Of a stretch of DNA of 64,000 nucleotides, positions 8,889-58,135 are shown in pieces. This DNA is from Gemmatimonas sp. (GTDB lineage: Bacteria > Gemmatimonadota > Gemmatimonadetes > Gemmatimonadales > Gemmatimonadaceae), in the NCBI GenBank assembly GCA_011390885.1, contig JAABRO010000014.1, forward strand, positions 253 to 64,252, written 5' to 3'. Within the stretch, counting starts at the first letter, position 1. The number at the start of each line of letters is the position of its first letter. The notes below the pieces were generated by a model. That model saw nothing but the letters and a program-made list of their open reading frames with translations, did no database searches and was not told where the DNA came from. Made by a program: the position numbers and the translations under genes.

Positions 8889-9089
8889 ATGGCGATCGGC
8901 ATCGGCGGCGTGATCGACGTGCTGCTGCTCGCCGGCCCGCTGTCGCAGGCGCGGCGCGGTCGCCTGCGCACCGCGGGCGCCGCCGCGCGCGCGTTGAGCG
9001 TACGGTGGGCGGTCGGCGTAGGAGCGGTGGTGGTGCTGGGGTATGCCGCCCTGACCCTGCACCGCCGCCCCGAGCTGCGCCGCAGTTAG
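8889..9089 (+). pseudogene. Decayed 3' fragment of the MFS exporter gene
   Basis: Near-identical in blocks to the MFS gene: 8895-8975 matches about 6690-6765 (GGCATCGGCGGCGTGATCG, then CCGGCCCGCTGTCGCAGGCG), and 8985-9089 matches about 7005-7107 (GTGGTGGTGCTGGGGTATGC). Between them roughly 240 bases of the intact gene are missing, joining helix-7 sequence directly to the last helix. Ends CGC AGT TAG where the intact gene ends CGC AGT TGA. A pseudogene left by duplication of the MFS 3' end and deletion. Confidence 0.85.
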
Positions 9090-9232
9090 ACCCCCGAGGC
9101 TCGCGGCTCGCCGCTTCTCGCTCTGGTCCGTTTGGCGAGATGCCGACCGCGTGGGCGGTGCCCGGTACGGGCATCGCGCAGCACGGACCCGAGCGGTCGG
9201 CGGCGAGCCGCGAGTCTCGTGGGGTCAACTGC
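9082..9232. repeat. Dispersed palindromic repeat, copy 1
   Basis: Two arms of 64 bases face each other across about 23 bases; by hand about 49 of 64 positions pair. Left arm starts GCAGTTAGACCCCCGAGGC, right arm ends CGTGGGGTCAACTGC. Inner cores are CTGGTCCGT on the left and ACGGACCCGAG on the right. No ORF. Lies between the MFS pseudogene and the CXXC gene and overlaps the pseudogene stop. Confidence 0.9.
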
Positions 9233-9277
9233 GTCCCGTCGCTGGCGAGATCCTGCGCGGCGCCATAGCATCGGCAC

Positions 9278-10891: not shown

Positions 10892-11034
10892 GCAGTCGAA
10901 CGCACGAGCCTCGAAGCTCGAGGCTTCTCGCTCGGGTCCGCGCTGCGCGATGTTCGCCCGGAGATCGAGACCGACTGGACAGATCGCGCAGCACGGACCC
11001 GAGGAAAAGAGCCTCGAGCCTCGTGGGTTCAACG
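10892..11034. repeat. Dispersed palindromic repeat, copy 2
   Basis: Left arm GCAGTCGAACGCACGAGCC, core CTCGGGTCCGCGCTGCGCGAT; right arm ATCGCGCAGCACGGACCCGAG, tip CGTGGGTTCAACGAC. It fills almost exactly the 149-base space between two convergent genes (stop at 10888 on +, stop at 11038 on -), where a strong RNA hairpin could end transcription from both sides. Confidence 0.9.
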
Positions 11035-24893: not shown

Positions 24894-25084
24894 GCAGTTG
24901 AACCCACGCGACTCGGAGCTCGCCGCTTCCCGCTCGGGTCCGTTCAGTGCGACGGTGGCGCCGAGTGTGGTGTTCGCCGCGGGCATTACGCGGCACGGCC
25001 CCGAGTGCGGTGCTCGCCGCGCGCATCACGTGGCACGGACCCGAGCGGGAACCCCCGAGGCTCGAGTCTTGGGGGTTCAACTGC
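24894..25084. repeat. Dispersed palindromic repeat, copy 3, with internal 40-bp duplication
   Basis: Tips GCAGTTGAACCCACGCG and GGGGGTTCAACTGC, cores CTCGGGTCCGT (left) and ACGGACCCGAG (right). It is about 40 bases longer than the other copies because the right-inner part, starting CCGAGTGTGGTG at 24961, is repeated at 25001 (CCGAGTGCGGTG). Lies between two divergent genes, immediately before the tamA promoter region. Confidence 0.9.
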
Positions 25085-38233: not shown

Positions 38234-38979
38234 CGGACGCGCGGGTGCCGTCGCCGACATCGACCGGGCACGCGACGGTGGACGTGTCGCGCCTCGTCGG
38301 GCTCTGGCGCGGTGCCGAGGTGGACGGTCCGGCCCGCCTGTCGCGCGACGGCGAGGCGCTCTCCTTCGAGTGTGCGCGCGGCGGCACGCTGCGCATCCCG
38401 ATCGTGTCGCTCGAAGGGCTCGACGTCGTGCCGCCACGCGCGCTGCTCTACGTGCGCGGCGGCGACCTGCTCGATGTGCGCCTCGACGGCGACGAGGCGC
38501 GTGCCTTCTTTCGCGCCGTGCAGGACGACGCGTTTGCACTGCCCGAGTTCACGCGTAGCCTGCGCCACCTGGGCACATCGCCCGCGCGCGGGGGCGGTGA
38601 CGCCTGCGAGCGCTGGTTCGCCCCGCTGCTGGCCGCGCGCCGGCGTGCGGCCGGTGTGACGGATCCGTTGCGTCAGGTGGCGCTGCTCGAGGCCGACCAG
38701 CTCGCGCGCGACCTGGCGAGCACGCTCGCGGAGCTGGCCGCGCTGCGCACGGGCGGTGCGCCCGCACTCACTCGCGCGCTCGAAGCGATGCTCGAGGAGG
38801 AGACGGAGGGGGTGCGCGAGGCGCTTGCCGGCACGGCGCTGGCCGCCGCGACGCTGCAGGGGAGCGCCGCCGACACGCGACTCGCCGACTGGCGGGAGTG
38901 GGTGCAGCAGCTGCAGGTGCTGTTCCGTCGAGCGGATGAGGTATGGCCGCGGATGGCGATGGTGCTGGAAGGGGGGTGA
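38230..38979 (+). CDS. Unknown soluble protein
   Basis: 249 residues; GTG start overlaps the HAD stop as GTGA. I do not recognise a family. The first 100 residues look like a small beta domain (VDGPARLSRDGEALSFECA, LRIPIVSLEGLDVVP, ALLYVRGGDLLDVRLDGDEA), possibly a PH-like fold that often occurs in sensors of surface properties; the rest is helical, rich in Ala, Leu, Arg and Glu (LLEADQLARDLASTLAELAAL). No signal peptide or membrane segment. Third gene of the EamA-HAD operon by translational coupling. Confidence 0.7.
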   Translation: MTDARVPSPTSTGHATVDVSRLVGLWRGAEVDGPARLSRDGEALSFECARGGTLRIPIVSLEGLDVVPPRALLYVRGGDLLDVRLDGDEARAFFRAVQDDAFALPEFTRSLRHLGTSPARGGGDACERWFAPLLAARRRAAGVTDPLRQVALLEADQLARDLASTLAELAALRTGGAPALTRALEAMLEEETEGVREALAGTALAAATLQGSAADTRLADWREWVQQLQVLFRRADEVWPRMAMVLEGG

Positions 38980-39036
38980 GGGGGGCGGCTGCGGCGGCCG
39001 TCTCGCTGTGACGCAACCAGCGGGGTGGCGACAGCA

Positions 39037-39288
39037 GGTGTTCAGCTGTGAGCGGTTTCAGCTGGTCGGCTGGACAGCTGACGGCCGCATCGCGCGAAGG
39101 CGGGCGAGTGGTGATGTCGCCACGTGTTGTGTGATGCCACCGCTCAGCTGATCGGCGACGCCGCCTCCGGCGGCGCAGCTGAGCGGTCGCCAAGCCGCGA
39201 TGGGAGCGGTCGCCGCGACGCCCGCCGAGCCGCGATCGTGCCGGTGGCTGGTTGGCCGACCAGCTGAAACCGCTCACAGCTGAACACC
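39037..39288. repeat. Element bounded by a perfect 34-bp inverted repeat
   Basis: Bases 39037-39070 (beginning GGTGTTCAGCTGTGAGCGG) are the exact reverse complement of 39255-39288 (ending CACAGCTGAACACC), 34 of 34, with 184 bases between. Each arm carries two CAGCTG sites flanking AAACCGCTCA. A third arm in direct orientation, with two changes, is at 39462-39495. No ORF. Together with the direct repeats it accounts for most of the 38980-39681 gap; the outer parts show nothing else. Confidence 0.9.
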
Positions 39289-39549
39289 GGTAGTCGCCGC
39301 CCCGAGGCGAGGTGAACAGGGCGACCGCTGCCGCAGCGCGATACCGCTGGTCAGCTGATCACCCGCGCCGCCCGCGGCGGCGCCGCTGAGTGGTTGCCGA
39401 GTCGCGATGCCCAAGCTCACCGCGACGCCCGCCGAGCCGCGATCGTGCCGGTGGCTGGTCCGCCGATCAGCTGAAACCGCTCGCAGCTGAACACCTGCAG
39501 TCGTCGCCCCGATCTGAGCTGACAAGGGAAAACGCCGCCGCCGCGCGAT
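39139..39549. repeat. Two imperfect direct repeats of about 205 bp
   Basis: Unit 1 is 39139-39342 and unit 2 is 39343-39549, head to tail. Shared blocks include ACCGCT..CAGCTGATC at the start, CGCGACGCCCGCCGAGCCGC and GATCGTGCCGGTGGCTGG in the middle (39214 and 39421), CAGCTGAAACCGCTC and CAGCTGAACACC, and CGCGAT at the end. Unit 2 is followed by 130 bases before the kinase gene. Confidence 0.88.
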
Positions 39550-39681: not shown

Positions 39682-42510
39682 ATGTCCGACCACCACCCGC
39701 CGCGCCGTCCGTCCGCGCCCGATCGCCAGCATCGTCGTCTGCAGCGCGCCACCTGGGTCGCCTTGCTGGTCGTGGCCGTCCTGCTGGGCGGTGGCCTGGC
39801 CGCACTGGCGCTGGCCCCCGTGTCTCCCGCGGTGCTCGGTGCCGCGGGGGCGCTGTTCGCGCTCGTCACCGGTGGGCTGCTCGCCGCGACCGTGTTCGTG
39901 GTGCGGCCAGCCGCGGCGCGCGCGGCCGAAGCGCAGGCCCTCGAGGCGAGGACCGCCGCGGACAGCGCCCTGCGCGAAGTCACGGCGCTTCGGCGCGCGC
40001 TCGACGAGCACTCGCTGCTGTCCGTGGCCGATCGCAGCGGCAGGATCATCGATGTGAACACCGGCTTCGTGCAGATCAGCGGGTACGACCGCGAGGAACT
40101 GCTCGGCCGCGACCACCGCGTGCTCAACTCCGGGGTGCACCCGCCGGAGTTCTGGAAGCAGGTGTGGCGCCTCATCGCCTCGGGGCAGGTGTGGCGTGGC
40201 GAGGTGTGCAACCGGCGCAAGGATGGCACGCTCTACTGGGTGGACAGCACCATCGTCCCGCATCACGGCCCCGATGGCCGGATCGAGCGCTACGTGTCGA
40301 TCCGATTCGACATCACGGCCAAGAAGGCCGCCGAGTCTGCGCTGGAAGCTACGCGTGCGTCGCTCGAGGAGGCGCAGGCGCTCGCCCGCATGGGCAACTG
40401 GTCGTACGACCTCGCCACCAGCAGCATCGAGTGGTCGCAGCAGGTGTACGATCTGTTCGGCCGTGCCCCCGAGGCCGGCCCGCCCACCTTCGACGAGCAC
40501 CGCCGCGACTTCACCGAGGCCTCGGGGGCGGCGCTGCTCGACGCCGTCACCGACGCGCTGGCCGACGGCCATCCCTATTCGCTGCTGCTCGAGCTGCGCG
40601 CGTCCGCGAGGGGCGTGCGCTGGGTGCGCGCCGAGAGTCGCGTGCGCCGCGATGCGCGTGGCACCATCTCGGGGCTGTTCGGCACCGTGAGCGATGTCAC
40701 CGCCGAGATCGAGCGCGAGGAGGCGCTCCGAGCGGCGCAGGCCGAGGCGAACCTCGTCACGCAGCGGCTGCTCGAGACCAACCAGATCCTCGAGCAGGCC
40801 ACCGCGCACGCGAACGACATGGCCGCGCAGGCGGAGATGGCGAGCTACGCGAAGAGCGAGTTCCTCGCCAACATGAGCCACGAGATCCGCACGCCGCTCA
40901 CCGCCATTCTCGGCTACACCGACGTGCTGCGCGACGAACTGCTCGTCTCGCACGGCTCGGTGCGGCAGCGTGATGCCATCGACACGATCCGCCGCGCCGG
41001 CGAGCACCTGCTCACCGTCATCAACGACATCCTCGACCTCTCCAAGATCGAGGCGGGGCGCATGGTCATCGAGACGGTGGACACCGACCTGCCGCGCCTG
41101 CTGCTCGACGTGGACGGCCTCATGCAGGAGCGCGTCGCGGCAAAGGGCATCGCGCTGCGCACGCGGCTCGCCACACCGGTGCCCGAGCACGTCTGCACCG
41201 ACCCGACGCGCCTGCGGCAGATCCTCATGAACATCGTCGGCAACGCCGTGAAGTTCACCGACGCCGGCGCGATCGACGTGGACGTGCGTGTGGAGCGCGT
41301 GACGACGGGCGGCGAGGTCATGGCCTTCGACGGCGATGCCCTCAGCTCGGAGCGGCTCGTCATCGCCGTGACCGACACGGGCGCCGGCATGACGCCACGT
41401 CAGGCGGAGCAGCTCTTCCAGCCTTTCACCCAGGCCGATGCGTCGGTCACCCGCCGGCACGGCGGCACCGGACTTGGCCTCACGATCTGCCGACGGCTGG
41501 CCGCGCTCATGCACGGCGACGTGCGCCTCGCGCGCACGAGCCCGGGGCAGGGCACGACGTTCGTGGTGGAGCTGCCGCTCGTGCCGGCGGAGGGAAGCGC
41601 GCTCGTGCACGATCTCGCGGCGTGCACCGAGCCCGCCGTACTGCGCGCGGCGACGGGCGGAGCGACGATCGCACTGGCGGGGCGCATTCTGCTCGCCGAG
41701 GACGGCCCCGACAACCAGCGACTGATCAGCCACCATCTGCGCGTCGCGGGTGCCGAGGTGAGCGTGGCCGAGAACGGCGCGGTGGCGCTGGCACAGCTGC
41801 GCGCGGCCGAGCGGGCCGGTGAGCCGTTCGACCTGCTCGTCACGGACATGCAGATGCCCGAAATGGACGGCTATACGCTCGCGCGCACGCTGCGCCAGGA
41901 GGGCAGCCGGCTGCCGATCATTGCGCTCACCGCACATGCGATGGCCGAAGACCGCGCGCGCTGTCTCGAGGCCGGCTGCGACGATTACGCGAGCAAGCCC
42001 ATTGACCGCGCGCTGCTGCTGGCCACCTGTGCGCGCTGGCTCGACACAGCCAATCCACACGGCCCCGCGGCGGACGATGCAGACGTGCGCGCCGGCGATG
42101 CCGACAGCGTGTTCCCCGCAATCGTGAACGACGACGACACCCTCGACGCGGACGGCGTGCCGTCCGTGATCCTCAGCGAGCTGGCGCACGATCCGGACCT
42201 CGCCGAACTCGTGCGTGCCTTCACGGGCAACCTGGGCGCGCGCATGGAGCAGGTGAACGCCGCCGCGCGCGATGGCGACCTCGCCACGCTCGGCCGGCTT
42301 GCCCACCAGATCAAGGGCACCGGCACCAGCTACGGCTTCCCCGCGCTTACGCGCGCCGCGCGCGCCGTCGAGGCGCACGCTACCGATGTCACCGACCCCG
42401 ATGCGCTCGCGCACGCGGTCACCCTGCTGCTCACCACGGCCCGCGCCATCCGGCGCGGGGCCGGCGCCACGCCCCACGTCGCCATGCCCGCGATCCAGGA
42501 GACCTCATGA
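39682..42510 (+). CDS. Membrane hybrid histidine kinase (PAS-PAS-HisKA-HATPase-REC-HPt)
   Basis: 942 residues. Two membrane segments near 15-72, two PAS domains (about 110-225 and 235-350; the first with VNTGFVQISGYDREELLGRD), HisKA with phospho-His400 (FLANMSHEIRTPLT), HATPase with N box (LMNIVGNAVKF), G1 (VTDTGAGM) and G2 (GGTGLGLTI), a receiver with Asp722 (LVTDMQMPEMDG) and Lys in SKPID, and a C-terminal HPt with His875 (LAHQIKGTG). All relay residues are present, so it can run His-Asp-His transfer to a separate receiver; the next gene encodes one. The gene stop overlaps the next start as ATGA. Confidence 0.95.
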   Translation: MSDHHPPRRPSAPDRQHRRLQRATWVALLVVAVLLGGGLAALALAPVSPAVLGAAGALFALVTGGLLAATVFVVRPAAARAAEAQALEARTAADSALREVTALRRALDEHSLLSVADRSGRIIDVNTGFVQISGYDREELLGRDHRVLNSGVHPPEFWKQVWRLIASGQVWRGEVCNRRKDGTLYWVDSTIVPHHGPDGRIERYVSIRFDITAKKAAESALEATRASLEEAQALARMGNWSYDLATSSIEWSQQVYDLFGRAPEAGPPTFDEHRRDFTEASGAALLDAVTDALADGHPYSLLLELRASARGVRWVRAESRVRRDARGTISGLFGTVSDVTAEIEREEALRAAQAEANLVTQRLLETNQILEQATAHANDMAAQAEMASYAKSEFLANMSHEIRTPLTAILGYTDVLRDELLVSHGSVRQRDAIDTIRRAGEHLLTVINDILDLSKIEAGRMVIETVDTDLPRLLLDVDGLMQERVAAKGIALRTRLATPVPEHVCTDPTRLRQILMNIVGNAVKFTDAGAIDVDVRVERVTTGGEVMAFDGDALSSERLVIAVTDTGAGMTPRQAEQLFQPFTQADASVTRRHGGTGLGLTICRRLAALMHGDVRLARTSPGQGTTFVVELPLVPAEGSALVHDLAACTEPAVLRAATGGATIALAGRILLAEDGPDNQRLISHHLRVAGAEVSVAENGAVALAQLRAAERAGEPFDLLVTDMQMPEMDGYTLARTLRQEGSRLPIIALTAHAMAEDRARCLEAGCDDYASKPIDRALLLATCARWLDTANPHGPAADDADVRAGDADSVFPAIVNDDDTLDADGVPSVILSELAHDPDLAELVRAFTGNLGARMEQVNAAARDGDLATLGRLAHQIKGTGTSYGFPALTRAARAVEAHATDVTDPDALAHAVTLLLTTARAIRRGAGATPHVAMPAIQETS

Positions 42511-55387: not shown

Positions 55388-58135
<2,748 letters not shown>

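Follow-up and report, generated by a model that had tools for sequence, protein, structure and literature searches.

Bacterial MITE-like repeats, among them ERIC, Correia/NEMIS, RUP, the Rickettsia palindromic elements, Chunjie and QMITE, are small, non-coding sequences with terminal inverted repeats, which occur in multiple intergenic copies and whose transcripts are predicted to form long stem-loops (PMC2229807; PMC10969869). REP elements are likewise palindromic; they prefer gene 3' ends and convergent or unidirectional gaps, are arranged in tandems or dimers and form species-specific families (PMC3733652). A further related phenomenon is template switching at quasipalindromes, reported in E. 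coli and in RNA genes, which homogenises the arms of a hairpin over several bases at once and in blocks (PMC7202029; PMC8794818).

Here we describe a family of repeats, designated F1, which came to light through an inverted repeat upstream of a histidine kinase gene in a 64,000-nucleotide stretch of a Gemmatimonas genome (the window). F1 is best filed as a new family of a known kind, the REP/MITE-like palindromic intergenic repeats, ordinary in kind and unusual in detail. Like ERIC, Correia/NEMIS, RUP and similar repeats, it is small and non-coding, has terminal inverted repeats and many intergenic copies, and is predicted to form long stem-loops; unlike them, its palindrome takes up the whole ~257 bp, neither a target duplication nor a parent transposase was found, and its copies are strongly clustered on the chromosome. 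With REP elements and BIMEs it shares the palindromic structure, the position near gene 3' ends, the tandem arrangements and the species specificity. However, REPs measure 20-40 bp and carry a GTAG or CGTC foot, whereas the F1 unit has ~257 bp and the end sequence CTGCAGGT..., and no Y1/RAYT-type transposase was detected in the genome that carries it. Integron attC sites were considered as well but dropped on inspection, since their core sites have no fitting counterpart here and housekeeping genes occupy the stretches between copies. What appeared to be a regulatory curiosity turns into a small natural experiment, with about 20 copies of a ~257-bp palindrome and homogenisation within copies. 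The family makes it testable whether arm-to-arm copying or RNA selection maintains long hairpins in bacterial chromosomes, and how palindromic repeats spread where no REP-type transposase exists.

Structure of the window locus

The gene-free gap described in the first-pass annotation measures 702 bp, from the stop of the upstream gene at 38979 to the kinase ATG at 39682. The upstream gene (38278-38979, + strand) encodes 233 aa without a Pfam match and ends 43 bp short of the element. That annotation's description of the kinase operon holds: a hybrid histidine kinase with PAS, HisKA, HATPase_c, REC and Hpt domains (39682-42510, + strand), which lies outside the element, followed by REC-GGDEF-EAL and HDOD proteins. 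Within the gap, 39037-39070 (+) and 39255-39288 (-) are exactly complementary, and the longest perfect run is indeed the reported 34 bp. The third arm at 39462-39495 (-) is also present, with one mismatch in the 24-nt core; no matches to this core are expected in shuffled windows, which excludes chance. The CAGCTG boxes are there too, ten of them between 39043 and 39489. Complementarity reaches beyond what had been annotated, with 86-nt arms at 39021-39106 pairing at 79% with both 39219-39304 and 39426-39511, and 39022-39301 is in effect a single imperfect palindrome along its full length. As RNA, this segment folds at -210 kcal/mol on the + strand (z = -14, that is, 14 SD below shuffles) and at -192 kcal/mol on the opposite strand, with z about -14 on both.

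We consider it well supported that the feature consists of one full and one truncated tandem copy of F1, a family of ~257-bp fold-back repeats. Copy 1 (39022-39301, + in the family-consensus orientation) was delimited by BLAST to the ~20 genome copies, alignment and folding, and leaves ~380 bp between its end and the kinase ATG. The exactly complementary segments, recognised by their pairing, are its left and right terminal arms, and between them lies a central secondary hairpin (39136-39190, +), whose inner stem CGCCGCC-TCC-GGCGGCG at 39159-39175 is invariant in 17 copies. Copy 2 (39302-39512, +), identified by the direct repeat and a partial BLAST match, is without its left arm, and the third arm is, by complementarity and its match to the arm core, the right terminal arm of this clipped copy. 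The head-to-tail units proposed in the first-pass annotation (39133-39339 and 39340-39546) do exist, with 207 bp at 81% identity, but the natural unit is the ~257-bp palindrome, with the second copy missing the left arm. The suggestion of small element ends was right in spirit: the repeat is fold-back and dispersed, congeners have empty sites, and the 34-bp repeats are the terminal arms of a palindrome of the whole length.

The family within the genome

The source genome is a 4.07-Mb draft in 62 contigs, ~95% complete, in which a BLAST search with the window element returned about 20 copies, found on contigs C3, C14, C18, C27, C34, C43 and C56. The refuting condition set by the first-pass annotation, a 34-mer confined to this locus, does not apply, as close relatives of the arm lie at more than 12 other loci. 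Seventeen full copies could be aligned over ~280 columns with a mean column identity of 78% and a constant core of 255-258 bp. The consensus starts with CTGCAGGTnnnCAGCCCTGAGCnGTTTCAGCTG and ends in roughly the complement of this start, and the inner hairpin CGCCGCCnnnGGCGGCG is invariant throughout the 17-copy alignment. F1 shows several of the features by which MITEs are defined, namely terminal inverted repeats (arms perfect over up to 34 bp; 86 nt at 79%), a size between 50 and 500 bp (~257-bp core), the lack of coding sequence (no gene is called inside any copy) and many dispersed copies. Several loci are tandem arrays with a spacing of ~381-393 bp, and two arrays on C3 terminate in a shorter copy from whose interior ~100 bp are gone. 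The window copy is among the most diverged, the closest other locus being 72% identical.

The loci are far from evenly distributed. Seven of the 14 have a neighbouring locus less than 6 kb away, against 0.5 expected (0/20000 simulations), and copies at different loci of one contig are 81% identical, whereas copies from different contigs share 70% identity (p = 0.0002 by label permutation). Contigs C3, C56 and C14 are probably neighbours on the chromosome, because their marker genes all map at 624-754 kb on the closed chromosome of one relative; the marker genes of C18 and C43 map elsewhere.

Distribution and empty sites in relatives

Among 40 sampled relatives, including four congeners, F1 was not found and only matches of 22-31 nt at chance level were obtained, an absence that holds per genome sampled, with one draft genome standing for each species. 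It was also absent from 394 further genomes drawn from the phylum and unmatched in plasmid and phage records, and an exact-pattern scan of a genome-contig collection returned zero matches. Thirteen isolated single matches of a short degenerate pattern in viral contigs were taken as chance. F1 accordingly appears from these searches to be a species-specific family, unrelated in sequence to any searched record.

Empty sites were seen in relatives at two loci. At the window locus the neighbouring genes are syntenic in two congeners, where 125 bp (G004) and ~130 bp (G001) separate the upstream gene from the kinase gene, versus 702 bp here. Between the convergent mnmE and DUF2268 genes, 7 bp in G004 correspond to 356 bp with F1 in the source genome; in another congener, G003, this position is taken up by unrelated DNA of ~250 bp. 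No target-site duplication is visible at mnmE, the one clean empty site, where 7 bp of congener sequence differ, and the other flanks are too diverged for this comparison. A third comparison of this kind, at the C18 locus, was uninformative because the genes flanking F1 sit on different contigs in G004; the genes around the first two copies (L065 4032-8500) are split in this way, which may mark rearrangement breakpoints at F1 or merely reflect the fragmentation of the draft.

Gene context

On the gene calls of a simple codon-usage gene finder, a gene 3' end adjoins 12 of the 14 loci; six loci lie in convergent gaps and two in divergent ones. The neighbours have nothing in common, as they include mnmE, ruvA, a GlnRS-type tRNA synthetase, an acyl-CoA dehydrogenase, a PHP/polymerase-beta-type protein and beta-lactamase-fold proteins, among others, and such diversity speaks against a role confined to the kinase operon. 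F1 is very unlikely to be a dedicated regulator of that operon.

Covariation and homogenisation of the arms

In the alignment, cells in which both sides have changed and pairing is kept number 52, compared with 26.9 +/- 4.5 after shuffling and 5-12 when the structure is slid. The two arms of a copy resemble each other more than re-paired arms do (0/10000). At the free trinucleotide that separates GGT from CAGC, 7 of 19 copies show full complementarity, where re-pairing would give 1.0; five different triplets are involved, and the remaining copies match at 0-2 positions, mostly 0-1. The first-pass annotation had suspected recent exchange on the arms, and this is borne out by the block-wise homogenisation of the arms inside individual copies. 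Such mostly all-or-none covariation points to arm-to-arm copying, and as far as aligned copies can tell, it would fit the copying of one arm onto the other better than compensation one base at a time. Copies born as near-perfect palindromes and decaying afterwards would, however, give an identical pattern. The multi-base, block-like character is shared with quasipalindromes corrected by replication template switching. Quasipalindrome correction is a mutational process and not an element family, whereas here template switching would be acting on a dispersed repeat, as judged from the comparison of copies.

Wobble pairs were counted as well. G-U mismatches outnumber A-C mismatches 149 to 110 overall, in a pairing-neutral alignment of copies that are related to one another. 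Single copies can be strongly biased by strand, with 13 G-U to 0 A-C in the window copy (39022-39301) and 1 to 18 in the copy on C56 (L068 74-355). Either RNA selection or strand-biased C-to-T mutation could be the cause. Across copies, the favoured strand shows no consistent agreement with the direction of the neighbouring genes. Given this inconsistency and the relatedness of the copies, we do not take the wobble bias as proof of an RNA.

Origin and spread of F1

It is only from the distribution of the copies that we infer mobility, because no transposase-bearing element with matching ends, no Y1 transposase and no target duplication was seen. F1 may have spread as a non-autonomous, MITE- or REP-like element, through a transposase that can no longer be recognised or through some process linked to replication; it would persist where insertion does no harm, i.e., past stop codons. 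The perfection of the 34-bp arms in the window would then reflect recent arm-to-arm copying, through template switching between the arms or through birth as a near-perfect palindrome, rather than the binding of a protein there. Should transcription run in from the upstream gene, a very stable hairpin would be expected in the + strand RNA, and it could end or protect that gene's transcript.

Control by F1 of the kinase / c-di-GMP operon, as an invertible segment or as the large operator array of the first-pass annotation, is highly improbable. Perfect inverted arms and paired CAGCTG boxes close to the operon are what such a reading has to offer, but the same element stands beside a dozen unrelated genes at more than 12 unrelated loci, two congeners retain the kinase gene with a gap of 125-130 bp and without the element, no recombinase gene was seen adjoining the window element, and the full copy starts much closer to the upstream stop (43 bp) than it ends before the kinase ATG (~380 bp). 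It is less far-fetched, if still unlikely, that F1 is a family of functional structured RNAs or terminators, which transcripts would enter from gene 3' ends and whose hairpin would stop transcription, block 3' exonucleases or be cut by RNase III, with selection on the RNA producing the covariation of the arms. The position at gene 3' ends, the fold (z about -14, on both strands), the arm covariation itself and the wobble-pair strand bias per copy are in its favour, and a purely passive element would not need RNA selection. Against this, no intrinsic-terminator T-run stands beside the long hairpin and only one weak internal site was seen, two loci lie between divergent genes, the wobble-rich strand opposes the adjacent genes at C3 and C27_211, and homogenisation is mostly all-or-none and not site by site. 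Rfam likewise gave no match at the gathering threshold in the window, with chance-level hits only at E<=1.

The remaining alternatives concern the way in which the palindrome travels. REP-type transposition is unlikely, because searches for the Y1 (RAYT-type, PF01797) transposase gave 0 matches in the source genome and were positive in control genomes. Tentatively, F1 may be a classical MITE that relied in trans on an ordinary DDE transposase, with the full-length parent now lost or hidden in the ~5% of the genome that the draft lacks; this is a narrower form of the explanation preferred here and compatible with it. Terminal inverted repeats, constant length, dispersed copies and empty sites all agree with a classical MITE. 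No parent with matching ends was recovered, as a scan of the genome for the end motif with up to two mismatches yielded no further paired ends, no target-site duplication was seen, the palindrome extends beyond the ends to cover the whole element, and the copies are locally clustered. One additional exact match of the end motif, at C2:99611, is without a partner arm and looks like chance. It can also be speculated, as a rather doubtful proposal, that F1 spreads without any transposase, with replication template switching both giving rise to the palindromes and maintaining them, and with new copies arising a short way off along the chromosome. If true, this would explain the clustering, the likeness of copies on the same contig and the mostly all-or-none homogenisation of the arms, as well as the coexistence of several unrelated fold-back families in the source genome and a congener.

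Other fold-back families

A hairpin scan covering ~540 kb of the source genome and ~197 kb of one congener revealed several unrelated fold-back families besides F1. Long fold-back elements are very unevenly spread along the chromosome; on the 277-kb contig C11 (L097-L110), short terminator-like hairpins were the only ones present. A second family, F2, is rich in CTCGAG, has the ends GCAGTTGAACCC.../...GGGTTCAACTGC and occurs on many contigs of the source genome. Its copies include four in the window (9081-9233, 10895-11033, 24894-25084 and 56915-57077) and two in L063 (6303-6477 and 8532-8717), the latter on C3 and with an outer stem of ~52 bp that pairs almost perfectly. Hairpins of the congener G004 (L117 1144 and L131 734) are possibly related to F2. 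A third family comprises very long hairpins at L113 5205-5592 (388 bp, -343 kcal/mol) and L064 10002-10270 (269 bp, -214 kcal/mol), with similar ends ..ACTGCCGG... G004 also has a fold-back family of its own (GGCGGGGCGAAGGGG..., at L117 5445-5905 and L134 126-280), in which one locus of 461 bp consists of tandem palindromes. Finally, hairpins of the type CGCGTCAACTGCCGC...GCGGCAGACACGCG have a conserved core of 32 nt with an asymmetric internal loop CAA/AC and outer arms that are variable but paired (L112 9514-9587; L113 11881-11962 and 14797-14880; L117 9627-9740; also matches in G003 and G002). Often several to a contig, they were present in four of five genus members examined and in 0 of 20 genomes outside the genus.
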